From contig NZ_CP081958.1 of NCBI RefSeq assembly GCF_019823105.1, positions 744,001-808,000 of the forward strand: a stretch of 64,000 nt of DNA. Direction: 5' to 3'. The DNA is from Halobaculum magnesiiphilum (GTDB lineage Archaea > Halobacteriota > Halobacteria > Halobacteriales > Haloferacaceae). The first letter of the stretch is position 1; each line of letters opens with the position of its first letter. The notes beneath the pieces are model-generated. The model was not told the origin of the DNA. It saw only the letters and a program-made list of their open reading frames with translations, and searched no databases. Below are positions 9,661 through 30,869 of this stretch, piece by piece. The position numbers and the translations under genes are program-made.

Positions 9661-11766
9661 CTACAGCGTCATCTCCTCGCCGATCGCGTTCGAGATCTCG
9701 TCCTCGTGTTCCTCGGCGTAGCGTTCCAGCAGTTCCGTCTCGACGTCGTCGACCGGGAAGTAGCAGGCCGCCTCGTGCCCGTCGTCGGCGAACGCGGACC
9801 GCGACGGCTCCTCGCCGCGACACTCCTCGGTCGCCTTCGGGCACCGGGGTGCGAAGTTGCACCCGTTCGGCAGATCGACCGGGTTCGGCGGCTCGCCGGG
9901 CAAGAGCACCCGCTGACGGTCGATGTCCGGGTCCGTCCGGGGTGAGGCGGCCAGGAGCGACGCCGTGTAGGGGTGTTTGGGCGTCCGAACGACGTCCTCC
10001 GTGTCCCCGAGCTCCGCGATCCGCCCGAGGTACATCACCGCGAGGCGGTCGGCGATCTGGGTGAGGCTCGCGAGGTCGTGGGAGATGTAGATGATGCCGA
10101 TGTCCCGCTCGTCGGCCATCTCCCGCAGAATGTTGAGGATATTGGCCTTCAGGGAGACGTCGAGCATCGACGCCGGCTCGTCGCAGATGAGCAATCGCGG
10201 CTCGAGTACCAGCGCCTGCGCGATGGCGACGCGCTGGCGCTCTCCGCCCGACAGCTGCGCCGGCAGCTTGTCGAGGTACTTCTCGGCCGGCTTCAGGCCG
10301 ACGTCCTCGACCGTCTGTCTGACCCGGCGGTCGATGGCTTCGCGGTCGACCCCCTGGATCTTCAGGGGTTCGGAGACGGCCGCCTCGACCCGCTGGCGCG
10401 GGTTGAGGGAGTCGAACGGGTCCTGGAAGATGAACTGTACCTGCGAGCGGAACTTCTTCGTGCTCTCCTCGAGCAGCTCGTCGACCGAGGTGCCGTCGAC
10501 GTGGATCTCCCCGCCGGTTCGTTCCTGCAGCGCGGCGATCACCTCCGCGAGGGTCGATTTCCCACATCCCGACTCGCCGGCGACGCCGACGATCTCGCCC
10601 TCATGAACGGTGAGGTCGACATCGTTGACGGCCTTCACGTAGTCGGGATCGTTCCCGCGAAAGTCGTCGAGGATCCCCTGTGGCTGCTCGAACCACTTCT
10701 CGAGCCCGCGGGTTTCGAGGATGACGTCGCCGGTGTCGCCCGTCCTCCCGCTTTCGTCCCGGGGCTCTATCCCCCACGTCTCGGGGTCTTTGGCCTGCTC
10801 CCGCATCTCGTCGGCCCGGTCCGTGTAGTGACAGGCCGACAGTTGCCCGTCCGTCTCGACCAGTGGGGGATGGCGTTCCCCACATTCCTCCGTGGCGAAG
10901 GGACACCGGTTACGGAACACGCAGCCGGTCGGCTCGCGGGTGAGATCCGGCAGCGACCCCGGGATCGAGATCGCCTGCTCGTCGAACTCGTCGACCTCCG
11001 GGAAGGCGTTCTTCAGGCCCATCGAGTAGGGGTTCGTCGGCGCCCGGAACACCTCGTCAGTGTTGCCCTGCTCCATCACTTTCCCGCCGTACAGGACCGA
11101 CACCTCGTCGCACGTCTCGGCGACCACGCCCACATCGTGGGTGATGAGTAGGAGCGAACTCCCCGTCTTCTCTTGGATCTCCAGCAGCTTGTCGATGATC
11201 TTGTCCTGGACGATCACGTCCAGACCGGTCGTCGGCTCGTCGGCGATGATGAGATCCGGGTCCAGGGCGAGCGCCATCGCGATCGTGACGCGCTGGCGCA
11301 TCCCGCCCGAGAACTGGTGTGGGTAGTCGCCGGTCCGTGCGGGATCGAGCCCGACCATCTCGAACACCTCGGCGACGCGCTCGTTCGCGGTCGCTTTCGA
11401 GACGTTCCTGTGTTTGCGGATGGCCTGCCGGATCTGTGCGCCGACTGTCATCACCGGATCCAGCGAGTCCATCGCGCTCTGTGGGATGTACGAGATCTCC
11501 TCCCAGCGGACCGACCTCCAGTCGCGCTCGGAGAGATCGATCAGCTCCCGACCGTCGAACCGGATGCTTCCCGAGCGGATCTCCCCGTTGTCGTCGAGGA
11601 GTCCGAGGACCGCCTTGGCGACGGTCGACTTGCCGGAGCCGGACTCGCCGACGAGTCCGTAGTTGTCCCCCTCGTCGATCGAGAAGGAGACGTTGTTGAC
11701 GGCGTGGACGTCCCTGTTCGGCATCCGATACGTGATCTTCACGTCGTCGACTTCGAGCAGACTCAT
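9661..11766 (-). CDS. Fused double-ATPase of peptide/nickel ABC transporter
   Basis: This is the last gene of the operon 15686 to 9661. The 701-residue protein has two ABC domains. The first has Walker A GESGSGKST and signature FSGGMRQR, the second Walker A GESGCGKST and signature LSGGERQR. Each carries the OppD/F-type cysteine tail (CVFRNRCP and CNFAPRCP). The start at 11766 overlaps the stop of the upstream permease gene by 4 nt (ATGA), which indicates translational coupling. It acts at the cytoplasmic face, driving the permease pair encoded at 11763-13666. It closely resembles the orphan ATPase at 1027-3183 in architecture and motifs. Confidence 0.92.
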   Translation of the reverse strand: MSLLEVDDVKITYRMPNRDVHAVNNVSFSIDEGDNYGLVGESGSGKSTVAKAVLGLLDDNGEIRSGSIRFDGRELIDLSERDWRSVRWEEISYIPQSAMDSLDPVMTVGAQIRQAIRKHRNVSKATANERVAEVFEMVGLDPARTGDYPHQFSGGMRQRVTIAMALALDPDLIIADEPTTGLDVIVQDKIIDKLLEIQEKTGSSLLLITHDVGVVAETCDEVSVLYGGKVMEQGNTDEVFRAPTNPYSMGLKNAFPEVDEFDEQAISIPGSLPDLTREPTGCVFRNRCPFATEECGERHPPLVETDGQLSACHYTDRADEMREQAKDPETWGIEPRDESGRTGDTGDVILETRGLEKWFEQPQGILDDFRGNDPDYVKAVNDVDLTVHEGEIVGVAGESGCGKSTLAEVIAALQERTGGEIHVDGTSVDELLEESTKKFRSQVQFIFQDPFDSLNPRQRVEAAVSEPLKIQGVDREAIDRRVRQTVEDVGLKPAEKYLDKLPAQLSGGERQRVAIAQALVLEPRLLICDEPASMLDVSLKANILNILREMADERDIGIIYISHDLASLTQIADRLAVMYLGRIAELGDTEDVVRTPKHPYTASLLAASPRTDPDIDRQRVLLPGEPPNPVDLPNGCNFAPRCPKATEECRGEEPSRSAFADDGHEAACYFPVDDVETELLERYAEEHEDEISNAIGEEMTL

Positions 11767-12683
11767 TCTTGCTCCGTTTGTAGGTCGGGGTTGACTATCT
11801 CCTCGAACGCCCGCCCGACCAGGAAGACGGACGTCGTGACGGCACCGATACCGATCGCGGGCGGGAGTACCCACCACCACGCGACGCGGATGGCGCCCGA
11901 GCGGAACACCTGCTGGAGCATCCGGCCCCAGGAGGTGGTCGTCGGGTCGCCGAAGCCGAGGAACGCGAGCGACGCGCCGGCGACGATCGACCAGCCGACG
12001 GCGTACGCGGTGTAGAGGAAGCCGATCCCCAGCACGTTCGGGGCGACGTGCAGGAACATCGTCCGCATGTGGCCGGCGCCCCGCGCCCTGGCGGACTTGA
12101 CGAACGTCCGCTCTTTGACCGTCATCACTTCCGAGCGGATGACCCGCGCGGGCATCTTCCAGAGGAAGACGACCAGCACAGCGGTGATCAGCCAGACGCT
12201 CGGGGTCACGAACGAGAGGATCACGAGCGCCATCGGCAGGAACGGCAACGCGAACGTCAAGTCGGTCAGCCGCATCAGGATCTCGTCGACGCGGCCGCCG
12301 AAGTAGCCGCTCGTGAGCCCGACGAGGAATCCCAACACGCCGGTCCCGACGCCGCCGAACAGGCCGACGATGAGCGTCGGCCGTGCGCCGGCGAGGAACT
12401 GGCTCAAGACGTCCTTTCCGAACGAGGTGGTTCCCAAGATAGCCTTCCCGCCGGGCTCCTGGAGCCGCATCATCGACCCGCCCTGTTGGAGCGTGTCCTG
12501 AATGGGCTGGTAGGGGGCGATGTACGGCCCGAAGAGCCCGAGGAACACGAACACGACGAGCGTCACGAAGCCGACTTTCGCCGCGGTGTCCTCGAGGACG
12601 TAACTGAGTGTCCGCTTGGCTCGCCCGAACTCCGAACGCAGTCTGTCGACCGCGGTGTCGGTATCAAGCGTGTATCCCGACAT
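11763..12683 (-). CDS. dppC: ABC permease, DppC/OppC type
   Basis: The 306-residue membrane protein has about six hydrophobic segments, beginning with VGFVTLVVFVFLGLFGPY. The cytoplasmic loop SARARGAGHMRTMFLH is the binding-protein-dependent transport signature that docks with the ATPase. The N-terminal extension and the FGKDVLSQFLAGAR segment are typical of the DppC/OppC branch. Its start codon shares one base with the stop of the DppB-type gene (TGATG), and its stop overlaps the ATPase start. It forms the membrane channel together with the product of 12683-13666. Solute presumably a peptide, nickel complex or oligosaccharide; not determinable here. Confidence 0.9.
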   Translation of the reverse strand: MSGYTLDTDTAVDRLRSEFGRAKRTLSYVLEDTAAKVGFVTLVVFVFLGLFGPYIAPYQPIQDTLQQGGSMMRLQEPGGKAILGTTSFGKDVLSQFLAGARPTLIVGLFGGVGTGVLGFLVGLTSGYFGGRVDEILMRLTDLTFALPFLPMALVILSFVTPSVWLITAVLVVFLWKMPARVIRSEVMTVKERTFVKSARARGAGHMRTMFLHVAPNVLGIGFLYTAYAVGWSIVAGASLAFLGFGDPTTTSWGRMLQQVFRSGAIRVAWWWVLPPAIGIGAVTTSVFLVGRAFEEIVNPDLQTEQE

Positions 12684-13666
12684 CAGACATCACCCGCCTC
12701 GACAGTCGGATCCAGTTTCGCGTACGCCACGTCGGCGGTGAGGTTCATCACGATGACCGCGAGCGCCATGATGAACACGGCCGCCTGCACCGTCGGGTAG
12801 TCCTGATTGAGGATCGCTTGAACGAGCGCGCGACCGATACCCGGCCACGCGAAGACGACCTCCAGCGTGATGACCCCCTGAAAGAGCATCCCCGTCCGGA
12901 GCGCGAAGTAGGTCACGAGCGGCAGCAGCGAGTTCCGCCCGGCGCGACCGAGTTGTTCCATCTCGGACAGCCCCTTCGCGCGGTGGAGCATGAGGAACTC
13001 CGAGCCTTTCCGTTCGACGACGGAGTTGCGGGCGAGCATCAGGAAGTCGCCGCTGTAGAACATCACCGTCGCCGCGAACGGAAGCGTGTAGTGTTTCAGG
13101 AAGTCGACCGAGAGATACGTCTCCAGATACCCGTCCGGGTTCGCCAGCGGGCTGCGCATCCCGAACGCCGGCAGCCAGCCCAGCCCGTACGAGAAGATGA
13201 TGAGCAGGAAGATCCCCGTCACGAAGATCGGGACCGCGCGAAAGACCGTGGTCACGACGATGCTCGACTGCTCGAACCACGACCCTCGGTTCCACCCGGC
13301 GTACATGCCGGCGACCGAACTGATGACCGCCGTCACGACGAGCGCGGGCAGAAGCAGGACGAGGGTGTTCACCAGCGCGGGAACGATGATCTCGCCGACC
13401 GGGCGTTGCTGGGTGAGCGAGATCCCGAACTGGAACGTGAACAGGTTCTGGATATATTTCAGGTACTGGACGTAGATCGGCTCGTCCAGCCCGTACATTG
13501 CGCGCACCTGTGCCACTTGCTCGGCCGTGAGGGCCCCGGACGCGACGAGTCCGCTGAACGGGTCCGAGGGTAACAGCCGCAGCGTCACGAAGATGATACT
13601 GACGGCGATCAGTGTCAGCATCACCGCGATCGCTGTCCGCTTTATCAGGAAGCGTCGAAAGCTCAT
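12683..13666 (-). CDS. dppB: ABC permease, DppB/OppB type
   Basis: The 327-residue protein starts with a membrane helix (FLIKRTAIAVMLTLIA) and has the long periplasm-facing loop between helices 1 and 2 with SLTQQRPVGEI, as in DppB/OppB. The coupling loop HRAKGLSEMEQLGRAG precedes the last helices. It is the first permease of the operon and lies 25 nt downstream of the binding-protein gene. Its stop overlaps the dppC-type start. With the DppC-type partner it should form the translocation pore. Confidence 0.9.
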   Translation of the reverse strand: MSFRRFLIKRTAIAVMLTLIAVSIIFVTLRLLPSDPFSGLVASGALTAEQVAQVRAMYGLDEPIYVQYLKYIQNLFTFQFGISLTQQRPVGEIIVPALVNTLVLLLPALVVTAVISSVAGMYAGWNRGSWFEQSSIVVTTVFRAVPIFVTGIFLLIIFSYGLGWLPAFGMRSPLANPDGYLETYLSVDFLKHYTLPFAATVMFYSGDFLMLARNSVVERKGSEFLMLHRAKGLSEMEQLGRAGRNSLLPLVTYFALRTGMLFQGVITLEVVFAWPGIGRALVQAILNQDYPTVQAAVFIMALAVIVMNLTADVAYAKLDPTVEAGDV

Positions 13667-13691: not shown

Positions 13692-15686
13692 TTACGAGAA
13701 GTCGGATTGATCGAGTTCGGAGCGGGAGGCGTGTCCGTTCTCGACGCGCTCGGCGAACGCGTCCCAGGCGTCGCCCTGGGGCCACACCAGCATGTCTTGG
13801 TCGTCGAAGGTGTACCCCGCCTGCCGGAGCAGTTGACGGGCACCCTCGACGTCGTACTCGTACGGCTCGGTTTCCCCGTGGAACGGCGTCAGGAGTGGTG
13901 TGAGGAGGTTCTGTCCCTCGATCACCTCACCACGCCCGCCGAGCGTGTTCTGGACGAATCCCTCCTTGTCGAAGGCGTGACTCAGCGCGACACGGAACGT
14001 TTTGTCCCGGAACAGCGGAACGAGGTGGCTGAGGTGGACGTCCGTGGGGACGTAGTTCCGCGCGGTCTGTTTCTCGACGCCGCTCCCTTGGGCAGCGCGG
14101 TCGGCCTGCAGGTTCGAGACGGTCGTCCCGATGGCGTCGATGTCGCCCGACTGCATGGCGCCGATGAGCGTCGACACGTTGCCCACGTTCGCGTGGACCA
14201 TCTCGTCGATCCCGTCGCCGGGGACGAAGTAGTCGCCGAGGAGTTCCTCCCGGACGTCGTCGTCCCACATCCAGTTGTTCTCGTGTTTCTCGAGCCTGAG
14301 CTCGGAGCCCTGCTCCCAGTTGACGAACGAGAACGGGCCGGTTCCGACCGGGTTGTCGGGGTTGTACTCGGCGGGACTGTCGACGTCCTCCCAGCGGTGT
14401 TTCGGGATGATGGCGCTGCGGACCACGCGCTGGGTGAGGAACGCCGCGTCGGGCTCGGTGAGGTTGAACCTGACGCGCCCGCCCCCGCTCTCCGAGACGA
14501 TCTCGACGCTGTCGATCGTCCGGACGAACGCCCCCTGCTGTGGCGCGTTGTTCTCCTTGTACATCTCGACGCTGAACTTGACGTCGTCCGGACCGAACGA
14601 CTCCCCGTCGTGCCACTCGACACCTTCGCGGAGGTCCATCTCGACGGTCGTGTCGTCGACGACATCGGCGTTCGTTGCCAGCGCCGGGACGATCTCGAGC
14701 TCCGGGGAGGCGTCGAACAATCCGTCATAGACGTTGAGGAGGCGCTTCTCCTCCTGGCCGCCGCTGGAGAACGGGAGGTTCGTCCCCTGCATCCCTGACG
14801 TGACGCCCTTGACCCAGGTGGTCGAGTCGCCCTGCGGCTGGAGGTTCACCTGCGTCCAGATGAACGAGTCCCGAGTCGTTCCGTTACCCGGCGTCGGGAC
14901 GTACCCCTCCCAGTCCGCGGTGTTCGCCACCGTGATGACCTCCGGGAAGTTCGCCGCGATGAGGTAGGCGTCCTCACTGAGTTTGCGCTGGATCTCCTTG
15001 CAGATCTCGGCGCGTGCCTCCACGTCGCCGATCGTCTGCGCCTGCTCGTCGAGGAGCTCCGTGATCTCGTCGTTCTTGTAGTTGTAGTAGTTCCCGCCCG
15101 TCTCCGGGTGCGCGCGCATGAGGAACGGGTTCGGATCCAGGCCACGCTGGGGGTCCGGACCGTGGAGGTTCATCGTCACCGGCACCGGGTGCCCGATGTC
15201 CGCCCGCCAGAACTCGCCGTACCGAGTACTGGGTTGGACGGTGATCAGGTTCACCGGGACGCCGATGTTGTTGAACGATTGCTGAACCTCCAGCGCGAAC
15301 TCGCGCATCCACGGGGTCTCCGCCTGCGCGAAGTGCGTATCGACCTCCGGCACGGACTGTCCTTCGACGGCCGTGTACTCGAACTGGATCGCCTCGTCGT
15401 TGACATCGACACCTTTCGTCTCGACGGGCCATTCCTCCCAGAACCGTGTCTCGATGGATTCACCGCCTCCGTTACCACCACCGCCATCGCCGCCACCGCC
15501 GCCGCCGCCACCGCCACCACCACCGTTGTCGCCACCGCCACCGCCTCCGTTACCGTCATCGGATTGGTTCCCTCCACATCCCGCCAGCCCGGCCATTCCC
15601 GCCGCACCCGCGATCCGCATGAATCGCCGGCGCGATGCGTTTCCAGTCGTCCCCGATTCGATCTCGAACGGCTTGTCCTGCGACAT
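13692..15686 (-). CDS. Peptide-family (SBP_bac_5) binding lipoprotein, apparently circularly permuted
   Basis: The chosen ATG at 15686 gives 664 residues. A twin-arginine lipoprotein signal (SRRRFMRIAGAAG, lipobox LAGC with C37) is followed by a Gly/Asp-rich linker to about residue 75, so the protein is exported folded and anchored outside. The order of the SBP_bac_5 domain is reversed. Residues about 95-282 resemble the family's C-terminal part (QQSFNNIGVPVNLI near 135, YNYKNDEITELLDE near 201, then EARAEICKEIQRKLSED). Residues about 288-638 resemble the N-terminal part (TTWVKGVTSGMQ near 289, NVYDGLF near 318, REGVEWHDGESFGPDD near 353, GTGPF near 448, and the central GARQLLRQAGY near 615). 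The orphan binding protein at 28854-30869 shows the normal order. First gene of its transporter operon. Confidence 0.88.
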   Translation of the reverse strand: MSQDKPFEIESGTTGNASRRRFMRIAGAAGMAGLAGCGGNQSDDGNGGGGGGDNGGGGGGGGGGGGDGGGGNGGGESIETRFWEEWPVETKGVDVNDEAIQFEYTAVEGQSVPEVDTHFAQAETPWMREFALEVQQSFNNIGVPVNLITVQPSTRYGEFWRADIGHPVPVTMNLHGPDPQRGLDPNPFLMRAHPETGGNYYNYKNDEITELLDEQAQTIGDVEARAEICKEIQRKLSEDAYLIAANFPEVITVANTADWEGYVPTPGNGTTRDSFIWTQVNLQPQGDSTTWVKGVTSGMQGTNLPFSSGGQEEKRLLNVYDGLFDASPELEIVPALATNADVVDDTTVEMDLREGVEWHDGESFGPDDVKFSVEMYKENNAPQQGAFVRTIDSVEIVSESGGGRVRFNLTEPDAAFLTQRVVRSAIIPKHRWEDVDSPAEYNPDNPVGTGPFSFVNWEQGSELRLEKHENNWMWDDDVREELLGDYFVPGDGIDEMVHANVGNVSTLIGAMQSGDIDAIGTTVSNLQADRAAQGSGVEKQTARNYVPTDVHLSHLVPLFRDKTFRVALSHAFDKEGFVQNTLGGRGEVIEGQNLLTPLLTPFHGETEPYEYDVEGARQLLRQAGYTFDDQDMLVWPQGDAWDAFAERVENGHASRSELDQSDFS

Positions 15687-15908: not shown

Positions 15909-16577
15909 TTAGGGCTCGTTCGTGTCCCCGGCCCGTTCGCTTCCGGACCCCGAGAAGACGAGGTCGAACAGCCGCTGCTCCGCGAGCCGGAGCCGTTCGC
16001 TGAGTGTCGACTGTGCGATATCGAGTTCGGCGGCGATGTCATCCGCCGACGCCTTCCGTGGAACGTCGAAGTAGCCGAGCCTGTGGGCGGTTTGCAGGAC
16101 AGTAAGCTGTTCCTGCGAGAGTTCGTTCCGCAGGACACGCCCGAGTTGCCCGCTGCCGAACGGTTCGCCGGTGGTTTCGACTTGATTGACGCTTAATAGC
16201 TTGAACCGTCCGAACTGTTCTTCGATCTGCTCTGCGAGCGCTCGAAACGATTCCCACTCCTTGACGGTAACAACTCCCTCAAACGAGTCGTGGTGGAGTT
16301 GGAGTCGATTCGGGATCGCCCTTCCACGTAAGATCACACCGAGGAGGAACGGATAGGGTTCCCGGGCGACGACGGTCAGTCGATAGCTCGCGTTGTCGAC
16401 GGTCGGGCCCGATACTCGTTCGTGATGAAACAGCTCCACCCGCGAGAGGTCCTCCGTCACCGACTCCGGATCGAATTGAGACCGTGACGTGACGAGGAGC
16501 GACTCGATCCAGTTGCCCTCGTCCGCGTAGAACGCGTTCTCAAACTCGATCCGTTCTCCGTCCGGGATCCGTTCCAT
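15909..16577 (-). CDS. HTH_10 (Bat-like) transcriptional regulator
   Basis: The 222-residue protein ends in the haloarchaeal HTH_10 domain: LSQEQLTVLQTAHRLGYFDVP around 152-172, then the recognition region AAELDIAQSTLSERLRLAEQRL. The N-terminal 140 residues form the usual poorly conserved ligand or interaction domain. It lies between the ABC operon (same strand, 222 nt away) and the divergent aconitase-family gene. It is therefore a candidate regulator of either. The palindromes at 15685-15710 and 16870-16889 could be targets, but that link is only positional. Confidence 0.88.
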   Translation of the reverse strand: MERIPDGERIEFENAFYADEGNWIESLLVTSRSQFDPESVTEDLSRVELFHHERVSGPTVDNASYRLTVVAREPYPFLLGVILRGRAIPNRLQLHHDSFEGVVTVKEWESFRALAEQIEEQFGRFKLLSVNQVETTGEPFGSGQLGRVLRNELSQEQLTVLQTAHRLGYFDVPRKASADDIAAELDIAQSTLSERLRLAEQRLFDLVFSGSGSERAGDTNEP

Positions 16578-16897
16578 GAGATCCCGTACGACCCCGGACG
16601 CATCTGTCCGAAACTCGATTCGAAGGATACCAGATCACCACCCAGGGTGTATTGAGCGTTCCCACGACCCACATATAAAATTTGGTTAGAGGTCTAATAT
16701 TGGCGGAGCGCGGCGCTGAGCCTCCGTTCTCAGCGAGTGCCGACTGAACGGGCGGCGAGAACAGCACGGAATCCAGAATAATGTCATTTGAATGGCTGTT
16801 TCGGTGGCAGGCGGATGAACCATTCGAAGGTACAGTCCTTCTCTCGCTCAGCGGCGGAGTACTGTTATTGTGTTGCACTGTGCAAACACCGGTAGTT
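16578..16897. other. Divergent intergenic region between regulator and aconitase gene
   Basis: No convincing gene is seen in these 320 bases. An AT-rich stretch at 16671-16680 (ATATAAAATT) can be read as a TATA box on either strand and lies 94 nt upstream of the regulator start. The last 30 bases hold an imperfect palindrome next to the aconitase start. An in-frame ATG at 16781 would extend the aconitase by 39 residues, but those residues do not resemble the family. Confidence 0.5.
16870..16889 (+). promoter_or_regulatory. Imperfect palindrome 8 bp before the aconitase start
   Basis: The sequence reads GTGTTGCAC-T-GTGCAAACAC, an inverted repeat with one unpaired base. It ends 8 bp before the ATG at 16898. 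In a leaderless transcript it would cover the initiation region, a typical operator position for repression. Confidence 0.4.
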
Positions 16898-18865
16898 ATG
16901 GAAGGGACACTGACGGAGAAGGTGCTAGAAGACCACCTCGTCGACGGCGAGATCGAGACGGGCGAGGAGATCGGCATTACGGTCGATCAAACCATCGCTC
17001 ACGACCTGACCGGGACGATGGCGTGGCTGCAGTTCGAGGCGCTCGGCCTCGACGAGGTACAGGTCGAGGTAGCTGGCCAACACTGCGACCACCAGACCTA
17101 CCAACCGGATTTCAAGGTGTCCGACGATCACCGGTTCCTCCGTTCGGCGGCGGGCACCTTCGGCGCCTACTTTGCGAGACCGGGGACAGGGATCCTCCAT
17201 CAAGTTCACAAGGAGAACTTCACGGCGCCCGGGAAGACCCTCATCGGCGCCGATTCGCACACGCCGACCGCTGGCGGTCTCGGGTGTCTCGGAATCGGCA
17301 CCGGCGGACTCGACGTAGCCACCGCGATGGGCGGCGCACCGTACTATCTCGACATGCCCGAAATCGTCAACGTCCGCCTCCAGGGCGAGCTTCCCGAGTG
17401 GTCGACGGCGAAGGATGTCATCCTCGAACTCCTCCGCCGGTTCTCGGTCAAACACGGCGTCGGTAAAGTGTTCGAATACACCGGTCCGGGCGTCGAGAGC
17501 CTCTCAGCCCACGAGCGCACCGTTATCGCCAATATGGGAACGGAACTCGGTGCGACAAGCTCCGTTTTCCCGACGGACGAGCGAACGAGGGAGTTCTTCG
17601 AGCGCCTCGGCCGGCCAGAAGACTACGTCGAACTGAAACCCGACGACGACGCGGAGTACGACGACGAGATCGTGGTTGATCTCTCGGAGATCGAACCCTT
17701 GATCGCCTGCCCGTCCATGCCCGATAACGTCGTGCCGGTCCGGGAGGTTGCGGGGACGGAGACCGAACAGGTACTCGTCGGCTCCTGCACCAACGGCGCA
17801 TACGAGGACATCCTCCCCGTCGCGAAGATGCTCCGGGACCGTGAGGTAGCCAAGCGGACGGAGACGATCATCGCGCCCGGATCGAAACAGGCAGCCGAAA
17901 TGCTGGCACGGAACGGGCACACGGCCGAGTTGATGGCCGCGGGCGTCAACTTCTCCGAGGCGACGTGTGGCGCCTGTATCGGGGCCGGCCATGTCCCCGC
18001 TTCCGACACCGTGAGCGTCCGTACGTTCAATCGCAACTTCGAGGGGCGGTCCGGCATGGAAGACGACGTGGTCTACCTCTGCTCGCCCGAGGTGGCCGCG
18101 GCGACGGCCCTCACAGGGGAGATCACGGATCCGCGCGACCTGGCTGACGAACTCGGCGACTTGGAGGCACCGGGATTCGAATACCCTGAGCGGTATATCG
18201 GCGCCAGCGAGTCGGACATCATCATGCCCGAGCAGGCCGTTGACGACGGGCTCGTCAAGGGGCCGAACATCGACGAGGTCCCCTTGAAGGACCCCCTCGG
18301 CAGCGATCTGGCGGGACCGGCGCTCCTGAAAATGCCGGACAACATCACGACCGACCACGTTATCCCGGCGACCCAGGAGGTGTCGGTATACCGCTCGAAC
18401 GTGCCCAAACTTTCGGAGTTCACGCTCCAGCGGGTGGACGAGACGTTCGCTGCCCGCGCCGCGGAGGCCGACGGCGGCTTCCTCGTTGCCGGCGAGAACT
18501 ACGGCCAAGGGTCATCGCGGGAGCACGCCGCGCTCTGTCCGATGTATCTCGGAATTCACGGGGTCCTCGCGCGGTCGTTCGCCCGCATTCACAAGTCGAA
18601 CCTGATCAACTTCGGCTTACTCCCGCTAACCATCGACGAGGAGACGTATGACGAGATCGAGCAGGGCGACGATATCGAACTCGTCGATGACGCGCTCGAG
18701 GTGGTCGAGAGCGGTCGCCGGACGTTCACGGTCCGAGTGAACAACGACTGGGAGGCGAACGCCCGTCTGGACGCCAACGAGCGTGAACGCGATCTGCTCG
18801 TTGCGGGCGGGAAACTTCCGCACACCCGGCGAGCGTTTGCCGACGGCGTTGACGAGGAGTCGTAG
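16898..18865 (+). CDS. acn: Aconitate hydratase family enzyme
   Basis: The 655-residue protein contains the complete aconitase set. The [4Fe-4S] cysteines lie in GSCTNGAYED and ATCGACIGAGH. The substrate loops are ADSHTPTAGGLG and, in the C-terminal swivel domain, GENYGQGSSREHAA. The start at 16898 gives MEGTLTEKVLEDHL, which fits the family; longer in-frame starts do not. The expected reaction is reversible citrate/isocitrate interconversion in the citric acid cycle. Aconitase-family enzymes acting on methylcitrate or homologous acids look the same at this level. It stands alone and divergent from an HTH_10 regulator, inside an accessory region. It may therefore be a second, pathway-specific copy. 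Confidence 0.88.
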   Translation: MEGTLTEKVLEDHLVDGEIETGEEIGITVDQTIAHDLTGTMAWLQFEALGLDEVQVEVAGQHCDHQTYQPDFKVSDDHRFLRSAAGTFGAYFARPGTGILHQVHKENFTAPGKTLIGADSHTPTAGGLGCLGIGTGGLDVATAMGGAPYYLDMPEIVNVRLQGELPEWSTAKDVILELLRRFSVKHGVGKVFEYTGPGVESLSAHERTVIANMGTELGATSSVFPTDERTREFFERLGRPEDYVELKPDDDAEYDDEIVVDLSEIEPLIACPSMPDNVVPVREVAGTETEQVLVGSCTNGAYEDILPVAKMLRDREVAKRTETIIAPGSKQAAEMLARNGHTAELMAAGVNFSEATCGACIGAGHVPASDTVSVRTFNRNFEGRSGMEDDVVYLCSPEVAAATALTGEITDPRDLADELGDLEAPGFEYPERYIGASESDIIMPEQAVDDGLVKGPNIDEVPLKDPLGSDLAGPALLKMPDNITTDHVIPATQEVSVYRSNVPKLSEFTLQRVDETFAARAAEADGGFLVAGENYGQGSSREHAALCPMYLGIHGVLARSFARIHKSNLINFGLLPLTIDEETYDEIEQGDDIELVDDALEVVESGRRTFTVRVNNDWEANARLDANERERDLLVAGGKLPHTRRAFADGVDEES

Positions 18866-28853: not shown

Positions 28854-30869
28854 TCATTCCGTCCGGTGAAGCTGCTGGACCGTCAGCGGCCAATTCGCGT
28901 AATAGGGGCTGGCGATATCGTTGACGTAGCCATCGAAGTTCTGCCCGTCCACGCCCCAGCGGGTCTTTGGATAATACCAGGTCATGTACGGGCAATCAAG
29001 ATAGATGCGTTCGATCGCCTTGGCCGCCGCACGGTTGCGCTCTTCGGGATCCAGACTCTGGCGCATCGTCTCTAGGAAGCCGTCTGCGCCGGCGTTGACA
29101 AGGCCGTACCCTGTCGCATTGTAACTCGGGGTATCCTGGTTCCCGTCGCTGTGGTCGTCTGCACGTGACGAGTGGAAGTACCGGTACAGGTGAGTCCCGT
29201 ATGGCGAGGTATCGGCCCAGGCCATCGGGAACATGTCGTACTCTTCCTCGTAGAAGACACGCTGCACAAGCGAGTTGAACGAGATGGGCGACATCTCGAT
29301 GGGGACGCCTAAGCTCCTGAGCGTCATGATCCACGTTTCGATCATCTGCGCCTCGGCCGGTTTCTTCTTCGGGGGGTCCATCAACAGACTGATCGGGCCG
29401 CCGTGTGCCTCCGAGAGTGCAGTCCCATCGACGTAGAGTTCCTGTTCCGACCCTTCGTGTTCCCGCAACGTCTCGCTCTCGATCGGACCGAGCGAGTAGT
29501 CATGACGCGAACTGGACCGGCTGGCGGTTACCCCCGAAAGAGTACCCGGATACTCCTTCCCGACGTAGGTACCGCCCGTTCCATCGATAACCTCACCGTC
29601 CGTGAGGAACGCACGGATCCCCTCGATGTCGGTCACGCCACTCGACCCTCGGAACGCGAATGCCTCGGTTGCGGGATCCGTAAGAAGCTCCCCATCGTAC
29701 ACGGACTCCGGACGAACGGCACGGTAGCCGGGCGGGTGGGGATAATCCCCGTCGTACGCGTACCCTCGTTGAAGCCGATCCGTCCAGTAGATGTCGTCGA
29801 ACGCCATCGAGATGGCTTGTCGGAACGTGATGTCGTCGAACGGGGTCCGCCGGAGGTTGAAGCCGAAGAACGCGAAGCCGCTGCTGTACCCATCGACCAG
29901 CTGCGTTCCCTCCTGTGACTCCGCTTGGTCAATGTACGATGGTTTCAGGCTCCCGTACACTGCGTCGACCTCCCCTTGGAAGTACGCCCGGACCAACGCG
30001 CTTTGGCTTCCGTAGATCCGGTAGTTCACCGCGTCGAGGTAGGGGCCACCGGCGACCAGGTCCTCGTGCTCCTCGATCCAGTCCAGGGAGGAGAGACTCT
30101 CGTAGTCGTCGCGGAACGTTACCTGCATCGCCGTGGCTGGGTCGAACGTCGTTACCCGACCAGGACCGAGACCGACCGGGCCCCCGTTCTCGGTCGGTTC
30201 GTACGTCTGGGGGTCGGTCCCGGCCCACTGGTGCTCCGGAAGCAACGGAACCCCGCCGACCTGTCTGGTTTCCCACGTGCTGATCACGTCGGACAGACGC
30301 AGGTGAACGTCCCAGTCCCCCGAGGCGGCTTCGACCGATTCGATGGGCTCGAGCAGGCTCACATACCGACTGGGTTCGTGTTCGAGGAGGTAGCGGTACG
30401 TGAACAGAACATCGTCAACGGTGAACTCTTCACCGTCGTTCCACGTCAGCCCGTCGCGGACGTCAATATACACATCCGCACCGCCGTCGCTCGTCTCTTC
30501 GATGGCCCAGTCGGTGTAGACGTTCGGACGCACCTCGTAGGTGAACGGATCGACCGTCGTCCCTCGCTCGTAGACGAGATCCAGCGCGACGCCGGCGTAG
30601 GCACTCCCGGTCCGGAGGACGTTCATCGTATCCGGTTGGGAGGAGAGCCCGTAGGTGAACACACCACCCGCTCGAGGGGTGTCGGTCGATGGCTCGCTGC
30701 TTGGTGTGGCCGTCTCGGATTCGGAGTCCGTCGGTGTGTTCGTGGGTGTACTCCCGGTTCGACCGGAACAACCTGCGACTGCGGAGGTAACTACGGCGGT
30801 CGAGGCCCCCGCCAAGACACGGCGGCGTGTTTGTGTGTGGTGGTCGTTGTCGGCCGATGACTCCTCCAT
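28854..30869 (-). CDS. Peptide-family (SBP_bac_5) binding lipoprotein, orphan
   Basis: The ATG at 30869 gives 671 residues with a twin-arginine lipoprotein signal (TRRRVLAGASTAVV and lipobox VAGC), then a Thr/Ser/Pro-rich linker. The domain order is the standard one. GGVFTYGLSSQPDTMN starts the first lobe, RDGLTWNDGEEFTVDD follows, then the hinge region. The C-terminal segment has QMIETWIMTLRSLGVPIEM and FLETMRQSLDPEERNRA. It should capture a peptide or related solute outside the cell. No permease or ATPase gene adjoins it, so it must use a transporter encoded elsewhere. Base composition is more AT-rich than in the flanking transport operons, and debris lies on both sides, both suggestive of transfer. 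Confidence 0.88.
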   Translation of the reverse strand: MEESSADNDHHTQTRRRVLAGASTAVVTSAVAGCSGRTGSTPTNTPTDSESETATPSSEPSTDTPRAGGVFTYGLSSQPDTMNVLRTGSAYAGVALDLVYERGTTVDPFTYEVRPNVYTDWAIEETSDGGADVYIDVRDGLTWNDGEEFTVDDVLFTYRYLLEHEPSRYVSLLEPIESVEAASGDWDVHLRLSDVISTWETRQVGGVPLLPEHQWAGTDPQTYEPTENGGPVGLGPGRVTTFDPATAMQVTFRDDYESLSSLDWIEEHEDLVAGGPYLDAVNYRIYGSQSALVRAYFQGEVDAVYGSLKPSYIDQAESQEGTQLVDGYSSGFAFFGFNLRRTPFDDITFRQAISMAFDDIYWTDRLQRGYAYDGDYPHPPGYRAVRPESVYDGELLTDPATEAFAFRGSSGVTDIEGIRAFLTDGEVIDGTGGTYVGKEYPGTLSGVTASRSSSRHDYSLGPIESETLREHEGSEQELYVDGTALSEAHGGPISLLMDPPKKKPAEAQMIETWIMTLRSLGVPIEMSPISFNSLVQRVFYEEEYDMFPMAWADTSPYGTHLYRYFHSSRADDHSDGNQDTPSYNATGYGLVNAGADGFLETMRQSLDPEERNRAAAKAIERIYLDCPYMTWYYPKTRWGVDGQNFDGYVNDIASPYYANWPLTVQQLHRTE

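Follow-up and report, generated by a model that had tools for sequence, protein, structure and literature searches.

Evidence for a naturally circularly permuted SBP_bac_5-type binding lipoprotein in Halobaculum and for permuted relatives in archaea and bacteria

Introduction

Naturally occurring circular permutants are generally regarded as rarities. The window analysed here, a 64,000-nucleotide stretch of the Halobaculum magnesiiphilum genome, contains a gene for an SBP_bac_5-type substrate-binding protein (SBP), here called P0001, in which the family landmarks are found in swapped order, and a sequence-only reading of the window had proposed that it is a natural circular permutant. The locus therefore raises the question of whether P0001 is a genuine permutant of the cluster C (DppA/OppA-type) fold, where its chain was rejoined and reopened, whether it still serves an importer, and whether it is a single case.

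Gene layout and operon

The features under discussion, numbered from the first letter of the window, are as follows.

9661..11880, - strand: fused DppD-DppF double ATPase (two ABC_tran and two oligo_HPY matches)
11763..12683, - strand: DppC/OppC-type permease (Pfam BPD_transp_1 and OppC_N)
12683..13666, - strand: DppB/OppB-type permease (Pfam BPD_transp_1 and BPD_transp_1_N)
13692..15686, - strand: P0001, 664 aa, SBP_bac_5-type lipoprotein read as circularly permuted (ORF and translation; Pfam match to model 1-285 only)
13695..13808, - strand: new C-terminal tail of P0001, residues 627-664, TFDDQDMLVWPQGDAWDAF...SDFS (read directly; kept in orthologs)
13809..14816, - strand: old N-terminal part, now last, residues 291-626 (Pfam 331-632 to model 1-285; AppA 19-346)
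14817..14840, - strand: joint linking the former C- and N-termini, residues 283-290, QPQGDSTT (family alignment; no PDB chain matched across)
14838..15458, - strand: old C-terminal part, now first, residues 77-283 (phmmer, profile and HMM alignments)
15462..15575, - strand: Gly/Asp-rich linker (tether), residues 38-75 (read from the translation)
15576..15686, - strand: Tat-type lipoprotein signal SRRRFM...LAGC with lipobox Cys37 (read from the translation)
15909..16577, - strand: HTH_10 (bacterio-opsin-activator-type) regulator (Pfam HTH_10; upstream in orthologs too)
28854..30869, - strand: conventional-order SBP_bac_5 protein P0002 (= L005), the internal control (single co-linear domain; rotation without gain)

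The mature domain of P0001 comprises approximately 589 aa, and in its old N-terminal part the landmarks WVKGVTSG, WHDGESF, GTGPF and ARQLLRQAGY appear in order. The Tat lipobox and the adjoining genes for DppB, DppC and the fused DppDF give P0001 an export and importer context that is kept in orthologs, in agreement with the earlier statement that its signal is intact and its transporter operon full. The DppD- and DppF-type ATPases form one 739-aa fusion (9661-11880), which is likewise kept in orthologous operons.

Evidence for the swapped order

The order of P0001 is almost certainly not an assembly or sequencing artefact or the mark of a decayed gene, as the former proposal had allowed for in the case of the assembly, because the same order is shared by ten orthologs (74-89% identical) in independently sequenced, named Halorubrum, Halobellus, Haloarcula and Haladaptatus genomes, by co-linear relatives of nearly full length and no less than 41% identity, counted by hand in 69 of 392 haloarchaeal genomes, and by complete records for plasmids of Halobaculum and Halobacterium, among others, and because dN/dS of the gene is 0.07-0.18 overall.

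Pfam SBP_bac_5 (PF00496) matched residues 331-632 of P0001 to model positions 1-285 of 368 (177.8 bits against a cut-off of 32.4), and the same search of P0001 returned neither an SBP_bac_5 match beyond these residues nor another family above cut-off. Ordinary full-length members also cover the end of the model, as most PF00496 matches in six haloarchaeal genomes extend to model positions ~360-366. A co-linear match of the whole protein, named earlier as a refutation of the permutation, was thus absent; when the two halves were considered separately, the expected match to the model start was found, while the model end was left unmatched by Pfam.

The lone N-terminal Pfam match would also suit a C-terminally truncated conventional SBP whose residues 77-283 are an unrelated fused domain, and in isolation the first-part match to Listeria CtaP (5isu) is weak (18 bits by phmmer). 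Nevertheless, several comparisons place these residues on the C-terminal part of the SBP fold. In a phmmer search of the PDB, P0001 matched 5isu in inverted order, with residues 329-628 aligned to 55-339 and residues 129-252 to 355-472. A profile of 57 family members matched B. subtilis AppA with positions 208-531 on residues 19-346 (E 3.5e-67) and positions 46-192 on residues 361-506 (E 2.4e-12), and matched E. coli DppA with positions 212-529 on residues 29-368 and positions 50-183 on residues 381-515 (E 2e-14); overall, the matches to C-terminal residues of AppA, CtaP and DppA had E values of 1e-12 to 1e-14. The two stretches jointly span AppA 19-346 and 361-506 of 520, indicating that all parts of the fold are present, and the first part of P0001 aligns from residues ~96-129 onwards with AppA 361-506, DppA 381-515 and columns ~402-542 of an HMM built from 28 conventional-order SBPs (with the permuted L062 and L067 left out). 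Scored in isolation against conventional columns 402-542, residues 77-284 reached 40.5 bits, compared with 7.5 bits for the best of 500 shuffles.

Rotation provided a further line of evidence. When every rotation in 10-residue steps was scored against the conventional HMM, a rotation of P0001 by ~180 residues raised its best single domain from 209.3 bits, covering half of the model, to 243.6 bits, covering model positions 77-542. Gains were also obtained for the other permuted proteins P0003 (218.5 to 266.9 bits), L067 (254.8 to 367.0 bits) and L141 (268.4 to 376.4 bits), and rotation turned each permuted protein tested into one co-linear match. Among the conventional controls, L077 and L202 scored best unrotated, and P0002 changed by no more than 0.2 bit, bearing out the earlier view that this second binding protein of the window has the usual order. 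Together with the absence of a further Pfam family in P0001 and a predicted structure that folds as one unit (see below), the profile and shuffle tests led us to reject an unrelated N-terminal domain, which we consider highly improbable. Since its halves are swapped and become co-linear only after rotation, P0001 is classed, on its alignments, as a permuted variant within SBP_bac_5 and not as a conventional member. The proposal of a natural circular permutant is thereby upheld, and we conclude with high confidence that P0001 is a genuine permutant of the cluster C fold that would work as a binding protein.

Joint, new termini and predicted structure

In P0001, the former C-terminal end ...GYVPTPGNGTTRDSFIWTQVNL is connected with the former N-terminal end WVKGVTSGMQGTNLPF... 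by a joint of ~8 residues, in agreement with the short linker near 14840 noted previously. Among 60 solved PDB chains listed for a profile of the joint region alone, none matched across the joint, and the portions of this profile on either side of the joint fell on opposite ends of conventional chains. At the cut, ...ARQLLRQAGYTFDDQDMLVWPQG... precedes the new C-terminus, and the new N-terminus lies just ahead of strand IQFEY (residue 100). By homology, the cut site corresponds to AppA ~346-361, in the loop that leads from the ARQLLRQAGY helix into the following strand, a region that we take to lie within the C-lobe. Because the cut maps there, the earlier placement of the new termini in a hinge-proximal loop is unsupported. 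A cut near the lobe boundary was found only in a separate group of Bacillota permutants, termed class B, which share the swapped SBP_bac_5 order with P0001 but have their cut at conventional column ~254, whereas the cut of P0001, at column ~390, is the one that defines class A.

AlphaFold2, run on a 57-row alignment, predicted a P0001 structure with a pLDDT of 93.2 and a pTM of 0.91. The best PDB matches of this model in Foldseek were cluster C SBPs (E ~1e-18, TM 0.4-0.5); since Foldseek keeps sequence order, it has no power to prove a permutation, and low TM values despite such E values are what a permutant should give in a search of this kind. We infer that the three-dimensional fold of P0001 is probably equivalent to that of cluster C SBPs.

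Function, selection and ligand

Both halves of P0001 are under purifying selection, with dN/dS low in each. The order HTH_10 - permuted SBP - DppB - DppC - fused DppDF is found in nearly all of 26 ortholog loci, down to ~50% SBP identity, and DppB/C genes lie on the same strand within 3.5 kb in 63 of the 81 class-A loci whose flanks were long enough on either side. The operon kept in close relatives and the low dN/dS argue that the P0001 gene is functional, as had been judged probable. By inference from the DppABCDF structure (PMC12136057), its most likely mechanism would be ordinary. The sequence shows that a short linker joins the old termini and that the new termini open in the C-lobe loop past the ARQLLRQAGY helix; P0001 would act as an ordinary lipid-anchored binding protein whose two lobes close on the ligand in the manner of a Venus flytrap. 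Closed P0001 would then dock on DppBC for ATP-driven import through the DppBC/DppDF importer of the operon, the main difference being that the lipidated N-terminus and Gly-rich tether would leave from the C-lobe and not from the N-lobe.

In the DppABCDF structure, Asp436 of DppA binds the amino group of the peptide (PMC12136057). By alignment, this residue corresponds to Asp178 of P0001, which 34 of 35 close relatives retain, whereas the carboxylate-binding Arg383 of DppA corresponds to Gln121, at a position mostly occupied by S or Q in close relatives, where Arg is not kept. Only the Asp of the peptide-binding pair Arg383 and Asp436 is therefore found in P0001. These residues make a ligand that carries a free amino group possible, the alignment gives no support for a carboxylate contact of the dipeptide type, and no dipeptide binding is claimed because the Arg383 position is mostly S/Q. 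A divergent aconitase-like gene lies beside the HTH_10 regulator (window 15909-18865 and locus L197). It was dropped as a clue to the ligand because, among the 26 ortholog loci, only that of Halobaculum roseum has the gene (95% identical).

Distribution of permuted SBPs

P0001 is one of many permuted SBP_bac_5 proteins of archaea and bacteria, a large group that seems not to have been described before, so that the earlier question of a family or a single case is settled in favour of a family. Beyond the close relatives described above, many further genomes among the 392 haloarchaeal ones contain ~30% identical relatives with matches spanning the joint. With the joint-region profile, a hand count of joint-spanning matches gave 51 or more of 81 haloarchaeal genomes, 2 of the 312 genomes from other Halobacteriota and ~27 of 249 genomes of the phylum of Ruminiclostridium, all of which are lower bounds, given that genome G006 was found by the second half only and yet encodes a permuted protein. 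Permuted SBPs also occur on alphaproteobacterial plasmids of Maritalea, Nitratireductor, Ketogulonicigenium and Neorhizobium. Scoring with the conventional HMM sorted 222 SBP ORFs into 164 permuted, 56 conventional and 2 incomplete ones, a ratio that is biased because permuted ones were sought and that includes duplicate loci. Database records label permuted SBPs merely as 'ABC transporter substrate-binding protein'.

The host genome itself encodes two further permuted SBPs, P0003 (contig C3, 586 aa; ~26% identical to P0001) and L144 (contig C1, 716 aa), both with the swapped order and cut region of P0001. L144 (3535-5673) is part of a haloarchaeal permuted subgroup with L145, L148, L149, L151, L152, L155-L157 and L159, in which no locus with sufficient flanking sequence has a same-strand permease of the Dpp type within 3.5 kb; the loci L145 and L156 each carry two permuted SBP genes of this subgroup side by side. 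The SBPs of this subgroup may be orphan receptors or may be served by a distant permease, and, given the subgroup, permuted SBPs need not all be transporter subunits. In another Halobacteriota genome (G551), the C-terminal tail of L141 (3233-4996) is hydrophobic and closes with Arg residues, GFGVIAVIAGVMAATYLLRRRR; no lipobox was seen at the N-terminus, and from its sequence the protein looks anchored at the new C-terminus.

Several origins of the permuted order

To place the permuted proteins, all sequences were de-permuted, aligned to the conventional HMM and analysed with FastTree and with an IQ-TREE mixture model. For class A, both programs gave at least five changes of order across strongly supported branches. 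L067 is nested with the conventional L077 and L059, its nearest relative being L077 in both halves (47% and 35% identity); it recurs at 63-100% identity in 12 genomes of the same family and is cut about one helix upstream of the P0001 cut. L170 and L180 of Bacillota are nested with the conventional L202 and L206 (53% and 40-44% identity per half), and their old ends are joined by about three residues (RINLHDVGL-VRGG-TIVVG). L146/L153 and L141/L142 represent further separate changes of order. Class B (L188, L190-L192 and L209-L217) forms one well supported clade in Bacillota, is found in 11 of 41 relatives of one genome and has a predicted fold with a pLDDT of 86.8. Neighbouring class B pairs occur in some genomes (G988:C70, G990:C125 and G989:C101).

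It is very unlikely that one ancient permutation gave rise to all permuted SBPs, with the nested conventional relatives having been re-permuted or misplaced. P0001, P0003, most haloarchaeal rows and some Bacillota and alphaproteobacterial rows, together the main set, do group in the trees, though unsupported (value 32), and counts of order change alone cannot separate gain from loss. However, forcing all class-A rows into one clade cost 445 log-likelihood units (AU p 1.2e-56) and joining L067 alone to the main set cost 174 units (p 9.7e-6), the p-values serving as guides since the groups to be tested were chosen with the first tree already in view. The nearest conventional relatives of L067 and of L170/L180 are moreover the same for both halves, and L067, L146/L153 and class B have differing cut sites. 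Permuted SBP_bac_5 proteins have thus arisen several times, in archaea and in bacteria, with the fold and transporter operon apparently retained; the deep branches of the main set are weak, which makes the exact number of events approximate.

Regarding the route, the three-residue joint of L170/L180 fits the putative origin by tandem duplication and truncation that had been proposed earlier. No fused SBP duplicates were found as intermediates, as the long frames L228 (1336 aa) and L073 (1006 aa) each hold one SBP. Locus L100:5240-8736 of a haloarchaeal genome (G171) carries two conventional SBPs in tandem and in the same orientation, a layout that fusion followed by truncation could turn into a permutant.

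Inheritance of the permuted order across a large family, together with several independent origins, suggests that new termini are tolerated, and perhaps favoured, in the C-lobe loop. Whether permutation was selected for a specific function, such as turning the C-lobe side towards the membrane or changing the order in which the lobes dock, is a separate matter. The independent origins, the repeated use of one cut region, the tethering of Gram-positive-type and archaeal SBPs, as noted for TpMglB-2-like permutants (PMC4990184), and the tail of L141 with its suggested C-terminal anchor all point in this direction. Against it, permuted forms exist in Alphaproteobacteria, and in one or more of these forms (L194) the signal looks like an ordinary cleavable one; we regard selection for such a function as rather unlikely. 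As a broader and still doubtful conjecture, permutation might be a recurrent, selected route of SBP evolution, with at least five to seven cluster C origins that mostly used one C-lobe loop, moved the tether from the N-lobe to the C-lobe and changed docking.

Relation to known systems and implications

By profile and structure prediction, P0001 appears to have the fold of E. coli DppA (1dpp), B. subtilis AppA (1xoc) and Listeria CtaP (5isu), and it shares their WHDG, G(T/S)GPF and A..LL..AGY landmarks and the DppB-DppC-DppD/F operon type. In contrast to these proteins, its parts are swapped, its termini lie in the C-lobe and its lipid anchor is on the C-lobe side, and unlike DppA it has no peptide-carboxylate Arg.

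One described class of permuted ABC-importer binding proteins was found, namely TpMglB-2 (Tp0684) of Treponema pallidum, a naturally permuted cluster B sugar binder that still binds its ligand and closes, and for which 'Type Ic' was proposed (PMC4990184). P0001 resembles this 'Type Ic / cluster Bc' protein in being a naturally permuted binding lipoprotein of an ABC importer. However, TpMglB-2 belongs to cluster B, has another cut with three strands moved and apparently represents one lineage, whereas P0001 belongs to cluster C, has ~200 residues moved and is part of a set with several origins. Neither TpMglB-2 nor another cluster B protein appeared among the best 60 sequence and 50 fold matches of P0001 in the PDB, and none of the 60 PDB chains listed was a solved SBP_bac_5 structure spanning a permuted joint. 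A search of the open-licence literature found no report of permuted SBP_bac_5 proteins, and an unseen report may exist.

Collectively, one of the commonest receptor families of bacteria and archaea holds many permuted members that database matches cover incompletely. This affects annotation, homology modelling and phylogenies, from which the C-terminal third is silently dropped. The close conventional sisters of permuted proteins (L077 for L067, and L202/L206 for L170/L180) open the cost, benefit and mechanism of permutation to direct study.
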